This document shows positions 38,120 to 48,531 of a stretch of DNA of 64,000 nt, in pieces. The notes below the pieces were generated by a model, which made no database searches, was not told the DNA's origin, and saw nothing but the letters and a program-made list of their open reading frames with translations. The position numbers and the translations under genes are program-made. The stretch covers positions 124,001 to 188,000 of the forward strand of contig JAFDYY010000001.1 of NCBI GenBank assembly GCA_018267195.1. Direction: 5' to 3'. This stretch comes from Bacteroidota bacterium (lineage in GTDB: Bacteria; Bacteroidota; Bacteroidia; Cytophagales; Cyclobacteriaceae). Position 1 is the first letter of the stretch. Each line of letters opens with the position of its first letter.

Positions 38120-38730
38120 TAGTTCTTTACAAAGTTGCTGAGCAGTTTCATTCCAAACTGGTGACTTTTTTCGGGGTGGAATTGTACACCAAGAATATTG
38201 TTTCTCTCAACAGCAGCAGCGAATGTGTAACCGTAAGTGGCTGTTAAAACCGCGTCATTAGAGTCTGAAAGCCGGGCATGGTATGAATGAACAAAATAGA
38301 ATCGCGGCTCTTTAATCCCTTCCACCAATCTCGATTGTTTTGCCGGAGTAACGTCAGCCCACCCCATGTGTGGCACTTTATAAGTATCAGGCATTTCGGA
38401 TTTAATAAACCTTATATTCTTTCCTTTGATCCAACCGAGCCCTTTTTGACTTCCTTCTTCGCTTCCTTCCAACAATAATTGCATGCCTACACATACACCA
38501 AGCACCGGAGTTTTTTCATCGATTACCTTACGGGTCAATGCCGATATCAAACCTGATGCTTGAAGTTGCGAAGCGCAGGTATCAAACGCACCTACGCCCG
38601 GCAAAATAATTTTTGAAGCCGTTATTACATCTTCATCTCGTGCCGAAATCCGTGCCTCCACGCCTATGCGTTTTAACATATTGGCAATAGAAGCCAGGTT
38701 TCCGACACCGTAGTTGAGTATGGTGAGCAT
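38116..38730 (-). CDS. HisH-like glutamine amidotransferase of the sugar-amidination system (HisH2)
   Basis: Class I glutamine amidotransferase (204 aa) that releases ammonia from glutamine for the WbpG-like enzyme. The nucleophile lies in PVLGVCVGMQLLLEGSEEG, with the His and Glu of the triad in LGVQFHPEKSHQFG; LPGVGAFDTCASQL gives the oxyanion region. The length is typical of HisH. It overlaps the HisF2 gene by four bases and touches the hexapeptide acyltransferase by one base (TAATG). Its genetic link to WbpG indicates the sugar pathway rather than histidine synthesis. Confidence 0.92.
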   Translation of the reverse strand: MLTILNYGVGNLASIANMLKRIGVEARISARDEDVITASKIILPGVGAFDTCASQLQASGLISALTRKVIDEKTPVLGVCVGMQLLLEGSEEGSQKGLGWIKGKNIRFIKSEMPDTYKVPHMGWADVTPAKQSRLVEGIKEPRFYFVHSYHARLSDSNDAVLTATYGYTFAAAVERNNILGVQFHPEKSHQFGMKLLSNFVKNY

Positions 38731-39404
38731 TAGACATTAAGATGATTTTTTCTAAAATCATTAAATTCAGATGAAGGAATGAATCCATTATATTCAAACA
38801 AATTTTTATATTTTACAAATTTCATTTTAATACTATCATTTTGGCTATAATCCTGAACGATTTTGGCTGGATTACCAGAAATAACACAATAACCTTGTGG
38901 AAATGATCTGGTAACTATTGAACCAGCACTAACAGTGGTAAAATCACCTAATACAACACCGGGTAAGATAATAGACCCCATTCCTATTCTACAATACTTA
39001 CCTATTCTGATTTCGTTTATCACATGCTTTCTAATATCGAGCATAAAATGATTAGAACTGATGAGACCAACATTGGGGGCAATTTGAGTATAATCGTCAA
39101 TATATATTTTTCCCATTGCTTGAATATAACATCCTCCAGATATGCCGGGAGCAGCATCAACACCTACATAAATATTTCTCCAACTCCCACTAACTATTGA
39201 TGTATGATGAATCGGCCAATAAGGCCCAGAATTATTGCCTAATATTTTATGAGTGAACCATTGATTAAACTTAATTGGGCTCTCATTTATTCTTGTCTCA
39301 TATAAAGGCTTAAAAAAGGGAATATGTTTGACTATCCAAGAGTAACATCTGCCATGAAAAAGAAATATATACCCTCGATAAAAAAATCTTAGTACAGGTA
39401 TCAT
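38730..39404 (-). CDS. Hexapeptide-repeat acyltransferase
   Basis: A 224-residue left-handed beta-helix acyltransferase. The N-terminal 60 residues are aromatic and basic. The hexapeptide coils start near IYVGVDAAPGIS and continue through IYIDDYTQIAPNVGLISSNH, where the His is the likely catalytic base, to IGKYCRIGMGSIILPGVVLG and the C-terminal VISGNPAKIV. This last motif is typical of O-acetyltransferases acting on sugars (CatB/MaaT-like). It is the first of four AT-rich genes that include an acyl carrier protein and an adenylation enzyme, so it may take its acyl group from the carrier protein instead of from acetyl-CoA; this is inference. A WbpD-like N-acetyltransferase role for the amidino sugar is the alternative. 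Confidence 0.82.
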   Translation of the reverse strand: MIPVLRFFYRGYIFLFHGRCYSWIVKHIPFFKPLYETRINESPIKFNQWFTHKILGNNSGPYWPIHHTSIVSGSWRNIYVGVDAAPGISGGCYIQAMGKIYIDDYTQIAPNVGLISSNHFMLDIRKHVINEIRIGKYCRIGMGSIILPGVVLGDFTTVSAGSIVTRSFPQGYCVISGNPAKIVQDYSQNDSIKMKFVKYKNLFEYNGFIPSSEFNDFRKNHLNV

Positions 39405-39406
39405 TT

Positions 39407-39667
39407 TTAAAATTCAACGGTAGAATTAGTTAATATATAACCACAAAAATCGCCCACATTTTCTGCTTCAAAAATAAAATCAATTGAAAACTGAATATTA
39501 AATTTTTCTTCAATTGAAGAAATAAGTAATAGATTGGTTACAGAATCCCATCCTTCTATATTTTTTGGTGACGATAAAAAATCAATAATTAAACTGTCAT
39601 TATTCAATTCTTTTCTAAATATTTCATTTAAGACTTTCAATATTTTCTCCTTTTTTTCCATTTTCAT
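39407..39667 (-). CDS. Acyl/aminoacyl carrier protein
   Basis: An 86-residue helical carrier protein. The phosphopantetheine attachment site is Ser42 in EGWDSVTNLLL, with the typical following helix ISSIEEKFNIQFS and an acidic overall composition. The prosthetic arm would hold an activated aminoacyl or acyl group. It is encoded between the hexapeptide acyltransferase and a GNAT acetyltransferase, and beside an adenylation enzyme that could load it. It overlaps the GNAT gene by four bases (ATGA). The unlinked fatty-acid AcpP is more conserved; this one is a specialised carrier. Confidence 0.92.
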   Translation of the reverse strand: MKMEKKEKILKVLNEIFRKELNNDSLIIDFLSSPKNIEGWDSVTNLLLISSIEEKFNIQFSIDFIFEAENVGDFCGYILTNSTVEF

Positions 39668-40404
39668 TTAATTTTTTTATACAAAAAGCATGAGCCTGTT
39701 CTTTCAAATCCTATATTTTCATACATATAAACTCCTAATTTGGTTGCCTGTAAAATACATAAGTTGATATTTCTTTCTAAAATAATTTTAAGGCAGTGTC
39801 TAGTGATTTTACGCCCCACCCCCATACCTCTATACTTTTCTATGACACTAACCATATAAATTCCTGCAATATTATTTTCATCAATCCATATTAAAGCGGT
39901 ACCTATTACTACATTAAATGATTTAGCAATAACAATTTGTGCTCCTTTGCTAATTAAATATTTTACAATCTGTGTATCAAATATTTTTTTATTAAATAAA
40001 GTGACTGAAACAACTTCAGCCCATTTCTCAAGATCAGAATCAATTATAGTAACAAAAATATCAACGTTAGTTTCGCATACAACATTTGGTATATTAGCAA
40101 AATTATTGTAAGTCATACCGATCCATTTTTCAATCGGAAAAAATCCTTTGTCCTTTAACTTAAGATATGATTGAGTTGAATTTTCAAGAAGTATTAAATC
40201 TGAAAAGTTGTTTTTTTTTATTATATAAATGAACTCCTCAATTAAATTGTCAGTAAATATTCCTTCATCTGTCCTGTATATTATATTTGGCCATACTGAA
40301 GTTTCAGAAGCTACTACAGTGTAGTTTTGGGTCTTTATGACAGAAACACCGTGTTTATTTCCATAAAATGAATCAAGCAAAGAATATAAATTATTTATAT
40401 TCAC
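39664..40404 (-). CDS. GNAT family N-acetyltransferase
   Basis: A protein of about 246 residues. The C-terminal 130 residues form a GNAT fold with the acyl-CoA binding motif EKYRGMGVGRKITRHCL and the usual closing strand YMYENIGFERTG. The N-terminal half is a second, degenerate GNAT-like or substrate domain. The chosen start is a GTG that overlaps the adenylation gene by 14 bases and has GGAGAAG upstream; an ATG 57 bases earlier would give 265 residues but a 71-base overlap. Together with the adjacent carrier protein and adenylation enzyme it may transfer a carrier-bound acyl group or acetylate the sugar amine. AT-rich. Confidence 0.8.
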   Translation of the reverse strand: MNINNLYSLLDSFYGNKHGVSVIKTQNYTVVASETSVWPNIIYRTDEGIFTDNLIEEFIYIIKKNNFSDLILLENSTQSYLKLKDKGFFPIEKWIGMTYNNFANIPNVVCETNVDIFVTIIDSDLEKWAEVVSVTLFNKKIFDTQIVKYLISKGAQIVIAKSFNVVIGTALIWIDENNIAGIYMVSVIEKYRGMGVGRKITRHCLKIILERNINLCILQATKLGVYMYENIGFERTGSCFLYKKIK

Positions 40405-41908
40405 CTCGTAGATCTTCTCCACTAATAATGGTTTTAATCTTATTTCTGTCAGTCTTGCCACTTGACGTTAACGGAAACCTGTCAATAAATATTACTTTAA
40501 AAGGAATCATGTAATCGGGTAAAATAGATTTTAAATAATTAATGATAGTAATAGTATCACGCCCCAATCCTTCATTTTCAATCACAAGTACCAACCCTAA
40601 TGTTCCTGTTTTATTTTCAATTGGAACCACAACATTATTAACATTGTATTGATTTCTAACTAAAAATTCAATTTCACCTAATTCAATCCTAAAGCCCTGA
40701 ATTTTCACCTGATTATCTAATCTCCCGCAATAAAAAAAATCACCCTCCTCATCGAAATAACACAAATCGCCTGTTTTGTAAAACCTATTTTTTACTTTTT
40801 TATAAGTTAGCTCAACAAAAGAATTGCTATTTTTTTGTATATTATTAATATATCCATCGGTTAATTGCTCCCCCGAAATACATAGTTCTCCTTTTTCATT
40901 TACTTCCGCGAAATCAGTTTCATTTTTAAGGATTACTAAATCAATCCCACTCATAGCTTTACCAATTGCAAGCAATCCGTTGTAATTTTTAATTATACTA
41001 TTTTCATATTTATAATAAGTGCTATATATAGTGGCTTCTGTTGGGCCATACATATTGCAAAAATATGAATTTGGCAATGCTTTTTGCCACATTGGAAGTA
41101 AATCTATATGTGTTGCTTCCCCTGTAAGAATGCACAACCTAACGTCTGGTAAAATTATTCGACTTAACAATGAATTTAAGAGCTTGATTACGGATGGTAC
41201 AATTTGAATTACAGTCAATCTCTTTTCCTTCATTAACTTCAATACGTTTAAATATTTAATTTTATCATCTGGAATGGTATAAACACACGCTCCATTCAAT
41301 AAAGGAACCAAAAAAGAAACAATAGAAACATCAAATGTAAGTTCAAACATTTGCAAACATCTATCATTTACGTTTATATTAAAATGTAGTTTTTCAAATG
41401 AATTTAAAAAAGAATTTAAACTATTATGAGTTATTGGAACTCCCTTAGGGACTCCAGTACTCCCGGAAGTATATAAAATATAAGCAAGTTGATCGTTCTT
41501 AATATTAGGGACTTTTATTTTTTCAAGTGAATCAATTCCTGCTTCAGGCTGAATAACTGTAAACATTGAATATCTCGCATCATCCAAAGTAACAGATGAG
41601 ATAATTATATTGACGCATGCATCTTTTAAAATAGTAAGGTTTCGCTCAATTGGGTTATGAAGTCCGAGAGGAACATAAGAATTTCCAGAAAACCAAATTG
41701 CTAGTAACGAAGAATAGGTTCTAATATCATCATTACAAACCACAGCAATACGCAAACTTACTCCACTTACAGATATATCCTCAATTTGTTTTTGAATTGC
41801 AATAATACTTTTTTTTAAATACGCATAGGTATAATACTCGTCATTTATACAAAAAGCATTATTGTCTGAATAATTTTCAAAATTTATACTAAGTCTCTCA
41901 AGAAACAT
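40391..41908 (-). CDS. Stand-alone amino acid adenylation enzyme (DltA-like)
   Basis: AMP-forming ligase of the NRPS A-domain/DltA class (505 aa, the size of DltA). Core motifs are complete: A3 YTSGSTGVPKG, A4 FDVS whose Asp binds an alpha-amino group, A5 NMYGPTEA, A7 YKTGDL, A8 GRLDNQVKIQGFRIELGE and A10 PLTSSGKTDRNK with the catalytic Lys. The FDVS Asp favours an amino acid over a fatty acid. No fused carrier or condensation domain is present, and the discrete carrier protein two genes downstream is the obvious acceptor. The gene is notably AT-rich, suggesting acquisition. A six-copy AAGAA repeat lies 27-57 bases before the ATG. Confidence 0.9.
   Translation of the reverse strand: MFLERLSINFENYSDNNAFCINDEYYTYAYLKKSIIAIQKQIEDISVSGVSLRIAVVCNDDIRTYSSLLAIWFSGNSYVPLGLHNPIERNLTILKDACVNIIISSVTLDDARYSMFTVIQPEAGIDSLEKIKVPNIKNDQLAYILYTSGSTGVPKGVPITHNSLNSFLNSFEKLHFNINVNDRCLQMFELTFDVSIVSFLVPLLNGACVYTIPDDKIKYLNVLKLMKEKRLTVIQIVPSVIKLLNSLLSRIILPDVRLCILTGEATHIDLLPMWQKALPNSYFCNMYGPTEATIYSTYYKYENSIIKNYNGLLAIGKAMSGIDLVILKNETDFAEVNEKGELCISGEQLTDGYINNIQKNSNSFVELTYKKVKNRFYKTGDLCYFDEEGDFFYCGRLDNQVKIQGFRIELGEIEFLVRNQYNVNNVVVPIENKTGTLGLVLVIENEGLGRDTITIINYLKSILPDYMIPFKVIFIDRFPLTSSGKTDRNKIKTIISGEDLRGEYK
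40414..40420 (-). promoter_or_regulatory. Possible ribosome-binding site for the GNAT gene
   Basis: GGAGAAG on the coding strand lies 9 bases before the GTG proposed as the GNAT start. Shine-Dalgarno sites are uncommon in Bacteroidota, so it supports this start only modestly. Confidence 0.4.
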
Positions 41909-42906: not shown

Positions 42907-44037
42907 TCATTTTAACAATACAATTTGATTAACCAGTTTCTTTTCAATCTCCCAGTCATAAACCTCCTTTAAATGATTAAAACCTTCTATGCCCATGGTG
43001 TACCATTGGTCCTTCATGCTCCAGGCCGTCTCTAATGAAGCATCGAGACTTTTAATACTAAAGGAGGTTGCAAGAAAACCAGTTTTACCATCAATAATCA
43101 ATTTTTCATGTCCGCCTACATCCGTAACAACCGCCACCCTTCCACAAGCAACGGCTTCAATCAGTGACAAGGCACATCCTTCTCCAGCAGAAGGCAGAAT
43201 AAGCATGTGGTGATTTGCCCAGAGGTTTTGGATGTCATCCACATGGCCCCCAAAATGTACCCTTTCTCCTAGTTTTAAATTTAAAGTTAACTCCTTCAGG
43301 TATTTCAAATCAGGTCCTGCTCCAAAAAAATTAAGTTGCCATTTACGATTTCTCCATTTTTCCTGTGATAAAACTTTCAAAAGCAGGTTCTGACATTTCA
43401 CATTAACATCCAAACGTGCCACACAAGCAAAAAATATTATTTCACTGTCGGGATAGGGTAATGGAATATTATTTTTTATCCGTATTGGGTTATTCACTAC
43501 CACGGCATTAGACAAGGAAAACCCTATAAAAGTTTCACAAATTATTCTGTTCCTATCCGACACAAAAAATATTTTCCTCGCCAATGGAAATATTAGACGT
43601 GCTCTTTTGTATAAAAAAGAATCTAGCTTCCCAAACTCATTGTGATATTGGCATATCAGATAGTACGAAGTATTAAATTTAACGATACGGTCAAATAAAT
43701 CAAGGTCAAAGCAAGCTTCGTACGCCCCCCCCTGACTAATTACAACCAAATCAATCTCCGAAAAATTGATATTTTTATAATAGCCAAATAACCTAGGTAT
43801 TTTTTTTCGTACTAAAAACTCCAATTTTGATATTAAATTGATTTTACCAAAACTCTTTCTAAGGTGAAAAATTGCTCCCTTCTTTTTCAACTGAATCATT
43901 TCAGGTTCACCCCTCATCTGTTCACTTACCACTACCTCAATCGCATGACCTTCATCAAGTGCCACCTTGGCCATGAGTGACCAAAGAAATTCAGAACCTC
44001 CCCACTTGGTCACCGTTGAAATAAACAACATCCTCAT
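42907..44037 (-). CDS. Glycosyltransferase family 4
   Basis: GT-B glycosyltransferase (376 aa). The N-terminus MLFISTVTKWGGSEFLW has the GGSE/GGAE loop common to GT4 proteins. The C-terminal domain shows FACVARLDVNVKCQNLLLKVL, VHFGGHVDDI and MLILPSAGEGCALSLIEAVACGR, the EG-x-x-L-x-x-x-E donor motif, then VTDVGGHEKLI. A run of eight G on the coding strand lies in the SQGGAYEA codons near residue 100. It overlaps the next glycosyltransferase gene by four bases. The donor sugar is unknown. Confidence 0.92.
   Translation of the reverse strand: MRMLFISTVTKWGGSEFLWSLMAKVALDEGHAIEVVVSEQMRGEPEMIQLKKKGAIFHLRKSFGKINLISKLEFLVRKKIPRLFGYYKNINFSEIDLVVISQGGAYEACFDLDLFDRIVKFNTSYYLICQYHNEFGKLDSFLYKRARLIFPLARKIFFVSDRNRIICETFIGFSLSNAVVVNNPIRIKNNIPLPYPDSEIIFFACVARLDVNVKCQNLLLKVLSQEKWRNRKWQLNFFGAGPDLKYLKELTLNLKLGERVHFGGHVDDIQNLWANHHMLILPSAGEGCALSLIEAVACGRVAVVTDVGGHEKLIIDGKTGFLATSFSIKSLDASLETAWSMKDQWYTMGIEGFNHLKEVYDWEIEKKLVNQIVLLK
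43725..43732. repeat. Eight-base G tract in a GT4 gene
   Basis: C8 on the plus strand, G8 on the coding strand, spanning CAG GGG GGG GCG in a gene of otherwise moderate to low GC. Slippage by one base would break the reading frame about a quarter of the way into the protein. Confidence 0.8.
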
Positions 44038-44900
44038 TTTACTAATAATTTTTTTAGACCCCTAAACACTATTATAAGATTAAGCCTGCTCAATGGTCGG
44101 TACCAGAAAAGTTGCAGGTAAGACCAAATCAAAGTTAAATTAAACTGGCGAAAAGCGATTAGGTAATCAATTTGTTTAATATTAGAAAAATGTTGCAGGG
44201 TTCGATGCTCCACTGTACTGATTTGAATTACGGTTTTTGGTAGTGTGGTTCTCCATTTTTTAACAAAAAGTTTTGAATCTTTATACCACGACAAGGAATA
44301 TTTACCGGCCGAAAAGTGCTCAATCAGAATTTCATGAGTCACAAAAAGCTTGTAACGCTCACTAATAGCCATCGAAATATCAAGGTCATACAGGTCAAAT
44401 TTGGTAAACATTTTTTCATCAAAAGGAAATTGTCTCCACACTTCCTTACGCATGCAAAGAAACATACCATCAAGAACCGCAACCTCACTTAATAGAGTCA
44501 ATGAGTTTTCTTTTAATACGATCGTTTTACGTTCTCTGCCCCACGCTGCAACTGCATTGACTCGATGGTATTTTTGAGGAACATCCACCCAGCTAGTCGG
44601 AAGATTAGTTTTAATAACGGCACCCGCCACGCCTAATAATCCAATAAATTTATCTTGAAGATTCTTAATAATGATATTACCCCAATTTGAGGTAAGGAAA
44701 AACACATCCTCATGAACAAAAATTAAAAAATCATATTTTGATTTTCTTGCACCTTCATTATAAGCTGCACAAATTCCTAGTCGACAATCTGAATTATTTA
44801 TTGTGATTACCTCATGGGCAACCCCGATCGTTTCATTAATATTGTCTTCAATTTTATCAAGTAGTGATTTTTCCCGGCTGCAGATAATAATAGAAATCAT
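44034..44900 (-). CDS. Glycosyltransferase, GT2-like
   Basis: A 288-residue GT-A-like glycosyltransferase. It starts MISIIICSREKSLLDKI, with EVITINNSDCRLGICAAYNEG as the nucleotide-binding part. YDFLIFVHEDVFFLT supplies the metal-binding acidic motif in the HED form seen in a GT2 subgroup. LDGMFLCMRKEVW and DLYDLDISMAISER belong to the acceptor domain. Its start codon lies only ten bases from that of the divergent DUF1919 gene, so its promoter, if it has its own, must be inside that gene. It overlaps the downstream GT4 gene by four bases. Confidence 0.85.
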   Translation of the reverse strand: MISIIICSREKSLLDKIEDNINETIGVAHEVITINNSDCRLGICAAYNEGARKSKYDFLIFVHEDVFFLTSNWGNIIIKNLQDKFIGLLGVAGAVIKTNLPTSWVDVPQKYHRVNAVAAWGRERKTIVLKENSLTLLSEVAVLDGMFLCMRKEVWRQFPFDEKMFTKFDLYDLDISMAISERYKLFVTHEILIEHFSAGKYSLSWYKDSKLFVKKWRTTLPKTVIQISTVEHRTLQHFSNIKQIDYLIAFRQFNLTLIWSYLQLFWYRPLSRLNLIIVFRGLKKLLVK

Positions 44901-44910
44901 ATTAATTAAA

Positions 44911-45603
44911 ATGTCTCGAACTCTAAAAAAAATATCATATCACATAGATACAATCAAGAAAAAGCTTGTTAGAAATATCTATTCATTAGTTTATTCTTCA
45001 AGGCTCAAAAATAAGGACTTTGCAATCATATCAAATAACTGCTGGGGGGGGGGCATTTATCAAATCACTAAGTCTCCTTACAATACTCCTTTTATAGGAT
45101 TATTTATAAATGCTCCTTGTTATATTAAATTCTTAAGAAACCCCGATTACTATTTAAATCAAAATATTGAATTTGTTAAAAAATCAAAATATTTACACCT
45201 TAACACACTACAAAAATATCCTATAGGATGCCTCTCCGACATTGAAATACATTTTTTGCATTATAAATCCGAAGATGAAGCTACTAAGAAATGGACTAGA
45301 AGATGTCAAAGACTTCCTTCCAAAGATTCTTGGTACATCAAATTTGATGATCGTGATAATTTCGAGGAGACTCATATCCACGAGTTTCACCAGCTTAGCT
45401 ATAAGAATAAAATTTCTTTTACAAAAAAGAAATATGAATATGAACTTAATCTCAAGCTAAAAAATAAAGATGATTTAATTTTGTTTCATACCACATATGA
45501 TCTTATGGATATCATCCATTGGATCAACACAACGGAAGTCAAAAAACCTAATGGTTTTCTTCTTGTTATTCAAACTTTGCTCAAATATTACCCTAAATAT
45601 TAA
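44911..45603 (+). CDS. DUF1919 polysaccharide-modification protein (inverted gene, contains G10 tract)
   Basis: A 230-residue protein of the DUF1919 family, found in capsule and exopolysaccharide loci and thought to modify or transfer to sugars; its activity is not established. The signature FAIISNNCWGGGIY lies near residues 35-48, followed by NTPFIGLFINAP, YPIGCLSDIEIHFLHY and a C-terminal FHTTYD region. It is the only plus-strand gene in the 50-kb cluster. The start at the inner ATG leaves ten bases to the divergent GT2-like gene; its 3' end overlaps the methyltransferase by 11 bases. Ten consecutive G encode the WGGG of the signature. It is AT-rich otherwise, and in frame as sequenced. Confidence 0.85.
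   Translation: MSRTLKKISYHIDTIKKKLVRNIYSLVYSSRLKNKDFAIISNNCWGGGIYQITKSPYNTPFIGLFINAPCYIKFLRNPDYYLNQNIEFVKKSKYLHLNTLQKYPIGCLSDIEIHFLHYKSEDEATKKWTRRCQRLPSKDSWYIKFDDRDNFEETHIHEFHQLSYKNKISFTKKKYEYELNLKLKNKDDLILFHTTYDLMDIIHWINTTEVKKPNGFLLVIQTLLKYYPKY
45044..45053 (+). repeat. Ten-base poly-G tract inside the DUF1919 coding region
   Basis: The run spans TGG GGG GGG GGC within an AT-rich gene. In the read frame it encodes WGGG and the full protein. With 11 G the frame reaches TAA six codons later; with nine G it reaches TAG about 15 codons later. This is the classic arrangement of a slipped-strand on/off switch. Confidence 0.92.
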
Positions 45604-46426
45604 AACCAAAAGAGGCGATATATTTCTTAATTTGCCTAAAAGGTTTCAATATTATTTCGCCCACTATGAAACTCCTGTACCTTTTAACCTCTTCTACTTT
45701 ATCTTTAAGCATTTGCTCTAAAACTTTTTCCCCATCAAAAATACTACTACCAATAATGGGCAATGGACCATCAGAAGCAATAGCGATTAAATAAAGAGCA
45801 CCCATTTCATCAGAAGACTGCAAACGGTCATAATCACCGCTATATATTTGTATTCCTTCACTGGTACCCTCTGTATAAATAAATGATCCAAAAAAAGATT
45901 TTTGCCTGACTATTTTAATCTTCCGAAAGTGATTTTTTAGTAAGGCTTCAAATTCATTTGCATACAGTTCCTTAATATGGAAAGGGTTTCGCTCCCCTCT
46001 CTTATCAGTATAATACAATTTATCAGGTGAAGAAATAATTAAAAGTCCCTCTTCTTTTAAAACTCGCTTTAGTTCTAGCATCATTTCCTGGTGTTGATCA
46101 TGATGTTCAATTGTTTCAAAACTAACTGCGATATCAAAATAGTTATCAGGATAAGGTATCGCAGTAGCCGATCCTACTTTATAACTTAGATTCTTCTTAC
46201 TATATTTTTTTTGAGCCTCCTCAATAGATTTCGAATCAATATCGACTCCAACCACTTCAGCAGCTGTTGAGGATAAAAGGTTAGATCCATAACCTTCACC
46301 CGATGCAATATCAATCACCTTCTTACCATATACCAACGACAATGTGAGAGCATACCTATGCAAGTGCTCAGCAGTATTAAAATTATGTATGTGTGTTTCT
46401 AAACGTTCTCCTGTCCATTTAGCCAT
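45593..46426 (-). CDS. Class I SAM-dependent methyltransferase
   Basis: A 277-residue methyltransferase of the Methyltransf_11 type. KVIDIASGEGYGSNLL is the SAM-binding motif, VVGVDIDSKSIEEA the acidic loop, and PYPDNYFDIAVSFETIEHHDQHQEMM the typical motif II/III region. The N-terminal GERLETHIHNFNTAEHLHRY segment is shared with methyltransferases that sit next to ABC-transporter exporters of O-polysaccharide. The gene follows the Wzt-like gene by four bases, so chain-end methylation as an export or length signal is possible, as in some ABC-exported O antigens; that role is inferred. It converges with the DUF1919 gene with an 11-base overlap. Confidence 0.88.
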   Translation of the reverse strand: MAKWTGERLETHIHNFNTAEHLHRYALTLSLVYGKKVIDIASGEGYGSNLLSSTAAEVVGVDIDSKSIEEAQKKYSKKNLSYKVGSATAIPYPDNYFDIAVSFETIEHHDQHQEMMLELKRVLKEEGLLIISSPDKLYYTDKRGERNPFHIKELYANEFEALLKNHFRKIKIVRQKSFFGSFIYTEGTSEGIQIYSGDYDRLQSSDEMGALYLIAIASDGPLPIIGSSIFDGEKVLEQMLKDKVEEVKRYRSFIVGEIILKPFRQIKKYIASFGFNI

Positions 46427-46430
46427 GTTT

Positions 46431-47705
46431 CTACTTATTTATTTTTTGAACTTCCCAATTCAAAAGAGGCCTTACAATTCCAGGAAATTTTCCAATTGAG
46501 TCTCCGCGTGCTGTCATCCCTTGATGTACCTCAAATACATCTATAATTACAGTCTCTCGCACATACAAATGTACCACATGTTTATTGTGATTGAATATGG
46601 CGCTATTGACTACATATGTGCCATCTGCCAAAAGATTAGCTGGAATTATAGTAGTGGCCTGATGGAGACCTTTTTCATGAGGTTTATGATAAAGTTCAGA
46701 TTTTACACTATGAGTATCAAAAACGTTAATACCTTCCGCATTATAAATACTATGTCCCATCCATAATATATGTCCATCTTCGAGAACCTCGTACTCCATA
46801 TCAATTCGGATATTTTCATTAATCTTATAAGAATCTTTTATAATTCCATTAATGTCGCGAACCCGAATAGCATTTATTTTCACAACACTATCACCGGGGC
46901 GCTCATTGGCCCATATTCGCTCGGAGTTCTTTTTTAATCCTTTTTCAAAGTAAAAGTCAATAATCTTATCAACAGTATTCTCATGAACAATTTTTCCATT
47001 TTGTAAAAAAAATCCTTTATTACATAAAGTTGAAATGGCTGCCATATTATGGCTCACAAACAACACCGTTCTTCCCTCATTCTTGCTCACGTCTTCCATT
47101 TTGCCGAGGCATTTTTTTTGAAATTGGGCATCGCCTACGGCCAGCACTTCATCCACAATCAGTATCTCCGGTTCGAGGTGTGCAGCCACCGCAAAAGCCA
47201 GCCGCACATACATGCCGCTGCTGTAGCGCTTCACGGGCGTATCCAGAAATTTTTCTACTTCGGCAAAGGCCACGATCTCGTCAAACTTGCTTCTGATTTC
47301 GGCCCGGCTCATGCCGAGGATGGCTCCGTTCAAAAAAACATTTTCACGGCCGGTTAGCTCCGGGTGAAACCCCGTGCCTACTTCGAGCAGCGAAGCTACA
47401 CGCCCGTCTATGGTAATGCGGCCGTGGGTGGGCTCGGTAATGCGGCTCAGAATTTTCAGCAACGTACTCTTGCCCGCCCCGTTGCGTCCGATGATGCCAA
47501 CGCGGTCGCCTTGCTTAACTTCAAAAGTAAGGTCTTTCAGTGCCCAAAATTCTTCTTCGGTTTGCTGTACTTGGTTTTTTCGGGTCAGTAATTTTTTGGC
47601 ACTGCGAGTCAGGCTATCGCGGAGCGACCGGTACGGCTCGCGTATTTCGTGCGAAATGATAAACCGTTTCGACAGATTTTCAACTTTTATAACCGATTCA
47701 GACAT
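46431..47705 (-). CDS. wzt: Polysaccharide ABC exporter ATP-binding protein (Wzt-like)
   Basis: ATPase subunit (424 aa) of an O-antigen or capsule ABC exporter. The nucleotide-binding domain covers about residues 1-255: Walker A GRNGAGKST, KRYSSGMYVRLAFA as signature and ILIVDEVLAVGD as Walker B, with VSHN as H-loop. The C-terminal 160 residues form a Wzt-type carbohydrate-binding beta-sandwich (MGHSIYNAEGINVF and so on) that in E. coli recognises the modified chain end. The start is placed at MSESVIKVENLSKRF because the longer frame overlaps the permease gene without ABC homology. It follows the Wzm-like permease by four bases. Confidence 0.94.
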   Translation of the reverse strand: MSESVIKVENLSKRFIISHEIREPYRSLRDSLTRSAKKLLTRKNQVQQTEEEFWALKDLTFEVKQGDRVGIIGRNGAGKSTLLKILSRITEPTHGRITIDGRVASLLEVGTGFHPELTGRENVFLNGAILGMSRAEIRSKFDEIVAFAEVEKFLDTPVKRYSSGMYVRLAFAVAAHLEPEILIVDEVLAVGDAQFQKKCLGKMEDVSKNEGRTVLFVSHNMAAISTLCNKGFFLQNGKIVHENTVDKIIDFYFEKGLKKNSERIWANERPGDSVVKINAIRVRDINGIIKDSYKINENIRIDMEYEVLEDGHILWMGHSIYNAEGINVFDTHSVKSELYHKPHEKGLHQATTIIPANLLADGTYVVNSAIFNHNKHVVHLYVRETVIIDVFEVHQGMTARGDSIGKFPGIVRPLLNWEVQKINK

Positions 47706-47709
47706 CTGC

Positions 47710-48531
47710 TTAAATATTGTCGGCAAAGCCGCGTTCAGTTTTACGGAAATACCCAATGCCCACAATTAAAAAAAATAAAATGACAGTGGTAGAAATAGCA
47801 AAAGCACCCCAGTTCATCGGCTCGTTTAAAATGCACCAACGAAAACCATCTACAATGCTTACCATGGGGTTGAGCGCATACCACAACCGCCACTTTTCGG
47901 GCACCACACTGCTGCTAAAACCCACGGGCGTAATATACAGTCCCAGTTGCACCACAAACGGAATAACGTACCGCACATCGCGGTATTTTACATTCAGTGC
48001 GGTAATGTATAAGCTTACACCCAGTGCCGCGAGCAGCGCCAACACAATAAAAAAAGGCAAGAGTATGATCTTTACATCGGGCAAGGTTTGGTAAAAGGCC
48101 ATCATGGCCAACAACAATAAAAACGAAATGGCAAAATCTACCAACGCGGTAAAGATCGAGCTGGCCGGAATAATCAGGCGCGGAAAATAGACTTTAGAAA
48201 CCAGATTGGCATTAGTTACCAAACTGTTGCTGGCCTCCGATAAAGCGCTGGCAAAAAACTGCCAGGGCAACATGCCCGCGAAAACCATGATGGCATAAGG
48301 CGCGTTTCCGGGCGATGAAAGCTTGGCCACCCGGCTAAAAACCACGGTAAAAATAAGGGTGGTTAATATGGGTCTGATCAGCGCCCAGGCAGCGCCCAGC
48401 ACCGTTTGTTTATAGCGCACTTTTACATCGCGCCACGATAGTATGTAAAACAACTCGCGAAACCGCCATAGGTCGTGCCAGTAATTTTTTTCGCTGCGCC
48501 CTGCTTCAATAACAATCCGGTCGGGTTTCAT
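47710..48531 (-). CDS. wzm: Polysaccharide ABC exporter permease (Wzm-like)
   Basis: Inner-membrane permease (273 aa) of the ABC-2 family with six membrane segments. The N-terminal cytosolic WRDVKVRYKQTVLGAAWAL interface helix is the family signature, followed by GMLPWQFFASALSEASNSL and LVSKVYFPRLIIP, then NVKYRDVRYVIPF and the C-terminal ALNPMVSIVDGFRW. It pairs with the ATPase gene immediately downstream. The system exports lipid-linked polysaccharide across the cytoplasmic membrane. About 80 bases without a gene separate it from asnB. Confidence 0.95.
   Translation of the reverse strand: MKPDRIVIEAGRSEKNYWHDLWRFRELFYILSWRDVKVRYKQTVLGAAWALIRPILTTLIFTVVFSRVAKLSSPGNAPYAIMVFAGMLPWQFFASALSEASNSLVTNANLVSKVYFPRLIIPASSIFTALVDFAISFLLLLAMMAFYQTLPDVKIILLPFFIVLALLAALGVSLYITALNVKYRDVRYVIPFVVQLGLYITPVGFSSSVVPEKWRLWYALNPMVSIVDGFRWCILNEPMNWGAFAISTTVILFFLIVGIGYFRKTERGFADNI

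Follow-up and report, generated by a model that had tools for sequence, protein, structure and literature searches.

Within the 64,000-nucleotide stretch of Bacteroidota DNA analysed here (the window), a run of ten G lies inside the reading frame of a DUF1919 gene, and we are inclined to regard it as a real, slippage-prone and probably incidental tract, not one selectively maintained as a contingency switch. The gene and the elements that bear on its frame are as follows.

44911..45603, + strand: DUF1919 (PF08942) gene, 230 aa, about 29% GC, presently in frame (Pfam E 2.8e-49)
44925..44932, + strand: A8 run, a second, shorter homopolymer, codons 5-8 of the DUF1919 gene
45044..45053, + strand: G10 homopolymer, encoding W-G-G-G of the DUF1919 signature SNNCWGGxxY (last 2 bases of TGG, then GGG, GGG and the first 2 bases of GGC)
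45069..45071, + strand: TAA stop reached with 11 (or 8) G
45095..45097, + strand: TAG stop reached with 9 (or 12) G

The tract is read as TGC TGG GGG GGG GGC ATT (C W G G G I), and both the codons and the spacing in homologues confirmed the first-pass annotation in its assignment of the run to the WGGG of the family signature in the present frame. Its frame arithmetic, a TAA six codons on with 11 G and a TAG about 15 codons on with nine, proved equally correct: the addition of one G cuts the 230-aa protein to 53 aa (C-terminus CWGGGHLSNH*), and the loss of one G to 61 aa (C-terminus CWGGAFIKSLSLLTILLL*). The open frame is kept at tract lengths of 7, 10 and 13, giving products of 229, 230 and 231 aa, of which that from 7 G is one residue short of the family spacing. 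Since CWG[GA]xxY is spaced identically in the homologues, ten G is the length that both keeps the frame and fits the family. Among the 26 homologues compared, the residues C44, P60, Y118, W128, R131 and R134 are invariant, and both shifted products lack all of them but one (P60, Y118, W128, R131 and R134 are lost). The tract has two marks of a poly-G contingency locus, being a homopolymer of at least about 8 within a frame in which one base more or less abolishes the product.

The protein scored 167.8 bits against PF08942 (cut-off 25), and its structure was predicted with a pLDDT of 90.9. The sole solved DUF1919 relative, 2g6t of Clostridium acetobutylicum, was found by phmmer (E 7.8e-18) and agreed with the model in Foldseek (E 3e-12) and VIA-align (Z 20.5, rmsd 4.0, 194 aligned residues), so that the protein is like its family and 2g6t in signature, invariant residues and fold. 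Structure comparison beyond 2g6t gave weak matches alone (Z below 5), and for this reason no enzyme class is proposed. In the literature DUF1919 is mentioned in capsule and EPS clusters and nothing further: as cps17F of Actinobacillus pleuropneumoniae serovar 17 (PMC5901230) and as an eps gene of Lactobacillus johnsonii (PMC3609815). From these published loci and the cluster found here, described below, a role of DUF1919 in glycan assembly is suggested by analogy. The gene stands in opposite orientation to its neighbours, which are listed next.

42907..44037, - strand: GT4-type glycosyltransferase (PF00534), whose coding strand has G8 at 43725-43732
44034..44900, - strand: glycosyltransferase (PF13712), divergent from the DUF1919 gene
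45593..46426, - strand: SAM-dependent methyltransferase, convergent, with an 11-base overlap with the DUF1919 gene
46431..48531, - strand: two genes, a Wzt-like ABC ATPase and a Wzm-like permease of a glycan export system, as read from the translations

We read the cluster as one for O-antigen or exopolysaccharide, in which the DUF1919 gene would have an accessory part in glycan assembly. The G8 run of the GT4-type glycosyltransferase lies 1.3 kb from the G10 tract, both being among the 20 runs of at least 8 in the genome. At 38730-41908, next to hisH/hisF-like genes, a low-GC (28-32%) group of genes encodes an AMP-binding enzyme, a GNAT protein, a hexapeptide transferase and a small protein whose sequence suggests an acyl carrier protein; the group has the look of a module for decorating the glycan of this cluster with acyl or aminoacyl groups. 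The ATG codons of the DUF1919 gene and the divergent glycosyltransferase gene are 10 bases apart (44900-44911), and the promoter of either gene must therefore lie inside the other; a clear TTG/TAnnTTTG pair with its usual spacing was not seen for the DUF1919 gene. Phase variation of surface polysaccharides in Bacteroidota is known to proceed by DNA inversion (review PMC11868660). The gene shares the Bacteroidota surface-polysaccharide setting with the invertible capsule promoters of Bacteroides, but differs from them in the absence of convincing flanking inverted repeats; an invertible segment around the gene was rejected on this ground, and its opposite orientation is for the same reason no evidence of one.

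The first-pass annotation had called a run of ten G far beyond chance by comparison with the AT-rich composition, and this was not borne out when the peptide was held fixed. The codons TGG GGN GGN GGN contain 8 G regardless of their third bases, eight of the ten G thus being forced by WGGG, and two GGG choices join them into the run. With GGG making up 19% of the Gly codons in the window, the probability of a run of at least 10, given WGGGI, was 0.037 with the codon usage of the window and 0.032 with the codons of the neighbouring genes alone. In the whole genome (3.29 Mb, a draft of 130 contigs), pattern searches on both strands gave 16 runs of G8, 3 of G9 and 1 of G10 (from 25 overlapping G8 and 5 overlapping G9 windows), a smooth tail in which the run at 45044-45053 is the longest. 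Resampling of synonymous codons of 54 window genes gave 0.83, 0.175 and 0.08 runs of at least 8, 9 and 10 per 64 kb, or about 42, 9 and 4 per genome by a rough scaling from one window, against 20, 4 and 1 observed. Long G runs in this genome are fewer, not more, than its proteins and codon usage predict, and the excess of tracts over expectation that goes with contingency loci was not seen. The three G9 runs lie in ftsZ (MGGGTGTG, L005), in rplV (HVGGGR, L004) and early in a norB-like gene (LPPPKRL, L003), all named by reading the translations; since two of these three genes, ftsZ and rplV, are essential, in this genome a long G run does not by itself point to a switch. The mutS1 gene is intact (MutS1 of 884 aa). 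An intact MutS1 lowers slippage without abolishing it, and mismatch repair in other bacteria is compatible with repeat-based switching.

Conservation of the tract was examined in relatives. In some 20 DUF1919 genes from the same order, G is repeated four times in a row at this position, and never more than six times; where the run would be, they use other codons for Gly, Ala or Lys. Breaking of the tract by synonymous changes in relatives, which the first-pass annotation had set against its own proposal, was what we saw in these homologues. The lone homologue in the same genus (L009), in a collinear glycan cluster of genome G008, reads TGGGGCGGCATT without the run. The idea that congeneric species hold an allelic locus was rejected, as the adjacent glycosyltransferase is matched in none of the other 62 genomes from this genus. 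Five pattern matches were obtained in viral contigs, none of which encodes the DUF1919 signature, and in plasmid DUF1919 genes the site never carries eight or more G in succession (a G7 was found on one Lactococcus plasmid). On a Lactiplantibacillus plasmid, a DUF1919 gene annotated in two parts was set aside as a frameshift that involves no G run.

Among all homologues examined, the ten-G run recurred once. A scan for the motif AAYAAYTGYTG9 across about 85,000 species genomes gave 11 matches. Only one of these falls in a DUF1919 gene, that of a MAG of Clostridia obtained from goat jejunum (L036). This gene carries G10 at the same signature codons (L142:9499-9508), out of frame: the upstream frame, ending in FTIISNNCWGG, and the downstream frame, GGVVYEYYNLMKQSPTVGLFF, part exactly at the run, while the remainder of the gene and its neighbours in a polysaccharide cluster are open. 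It may be a natural off-frame allele, or else an assembly error, at homologous codons in another phylum. Because the gene was found via a pattern search, only its frame state counts as independent evidence. A wider sample of the phylum of this Clostridia genome gave one more genome with DUF1919.

Homopolymers of similar length were also searched for in the genus of the window, where 30 of 63 genomes have at least one G run of 10 or more; one locus was fetched per genome. Some of these runs are poly-G at contig ends and look technical (e.g. L110, G93), and the fetched runs well inside ORFs are in frame, as in a gene of L115 that reads as a DEAD-box helicase. At seven loci, in seven genomes, the stretch that codes for the n-region of a signal peptide of lipoprotein type contains C10-C16 (coding strand), the first C being located 10-16 bases behind the A of the ATG and the proteins starting in the MKKxPPPPP type.

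L105, 1501-1510: poly-C lipoprotein tract
L114, 549-562: poly-C lipoprotein tract
L117, 1501-1511: poly-C lipoprotein tract
L118, 1228-1240: poly-C lipoprotein tract
L122, 1501-1511: poly-C lipoprotein tract
L129, 1501-1513: poly-C lipoprotein tract
L130, 1501-1516: poly-C lipoprotein tract

At five of these seven loci the ATG and the lipoprotein are in different frames; that of L130 stays open through the signal peptide but ends 49 codons after the run. Two of the lipoproteins, one from L122 (C11, in frame) and one from L129 (C13, out of frame), are homologues of each other (25% identity, E 4e-19). From their position and frame states, these tracts probably represent repeat-based phase variation in Bacteroidota, for which they make a stronger case than the DUF1919 tract does. 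They render slippage at the DUF1919 run more plausible in this lineage, though they are no demonstration for the DUF1919 gene, and none of the window genome's own runs of at least 8 is of the lipoprotein type. In two genomes of the genus, peptidase C10 genes (streptopain-type, Spi domain) adjoin G/C homopolymers, at L121:1216-1225, where the run is about 40 bases upstream of the ATG, and at L130:1501-1516. A literature search found no paper on homopolymer phase variation in Bacteroidota, which does not prove that there is none.

The on/off switch of the first-pass annotation holds that slipped-strand mispairing puts the DUF1919 enzyme on with 10 G and off with 9 or 11 G, and with it the decoration of the surface glycan, as poly-G tracts do in Campylobacter. 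The tract, its frame, its place in the signature, the loss of function upon a shift by one base and the glycan-cluster setting were all supported, and slippage gained from the out-of-frame Clostridia tract and the poly-C lipoprotein tracts of the genus; the arguments from chance, from conservation of the tract and from a long G run as the mark of a switch were not supported. We consider such a switch, the main rival of the incidental reading, possible but not probable. In its favour, the poly-G contingency loci of Campylobacter, Helicobacter and Neisseria likewise have a G run of 9-11 in the coding region of a glycan gene and an early stop on one base more or less, and the unrelated Clostridia gene is otherwise intact. 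Unlike those loci, the window genome has a single tract, known here from one assembly, no excess of tracts and an intact mutS1, its other long runs lie in essential genes, and the tract falls inside the conserved signature itself; the chance figures, the relatives without the tract, the lack of a lipoprotein-type tract in the window genome and the single DUF1919 gene among the 11 matches also speak against a switch. That the tract length is an error of sequencing or assembly, homopolymers being error-prone and the genome a draft, is very improbable, as with ten G the frame is open and the CWGGxxY spacing exact, and an error would be more likely to disrupt the frame. Programmed slippage, transcriptional or ribosomal, giving two products from the gene, is more improbable still: a coding-region homopolymer is the minimal substrate for it, but the alternative frames stop 6 and 15 codons on and encode nothing conserved, and no homologue of the order has kept the run.

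The incidental origin that we prefer would run as follows. The DUF1919 signature requires W-G-G, whose codons (TGG GGN GGN) are rich in G, and with a third Gly following and two of the Gly codons happening to be GGG, these would have been joined into G10. The DUF1919 gene is ON in the sequenced genome, and since the run is presumably prone to slip, rare cells with 9 G and 11 G should arise, which would be DUF1919 null mutants able to revert via the same slip. We have shown the tract, its frame, the truncations, the family, the setting and the chance figures, and infer the slippage, its rate and the lack of selection at the tract. This incidental reading draws on the probability of 0.032-0.037 and the deficit of runs of at least 10, on the smooth run spectrum with G9 in ftsZ, rplV and the norB-like gene, on the in-frame state of the fetched runs of at least 10 G well inside ORFs of the genus, on the absence of the run from the homologues of the order and on the intact MutS1. 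Against it stand the length and the place of the tract, since no G run of the genome is longer and AT-rich accessory genes for surface glycans are where contingency tracts are commonly met; so do the out-of-frame G10 at the same codons of the Clostridia gene and the evident instability of the poly-C tracts of similar length in the same genus.

Should the tract prove to be a switch, slipped-strand phase variation of surface glycans would be added to a phylum in which inversion is the textbook mechanism; if it is none, it provides a clean example of how a Trp/Gly-rich family signature can seed a mutable run. Tentatively, we also put forward that the genus may use C/G homopolymers for phase variation, in lipoprotein signal peptides and, in the window genome, through the DUF1919 tract in a glycan gene. 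If this is true, repeat-based phase variation would operate in a phylum known for DNA inversion.
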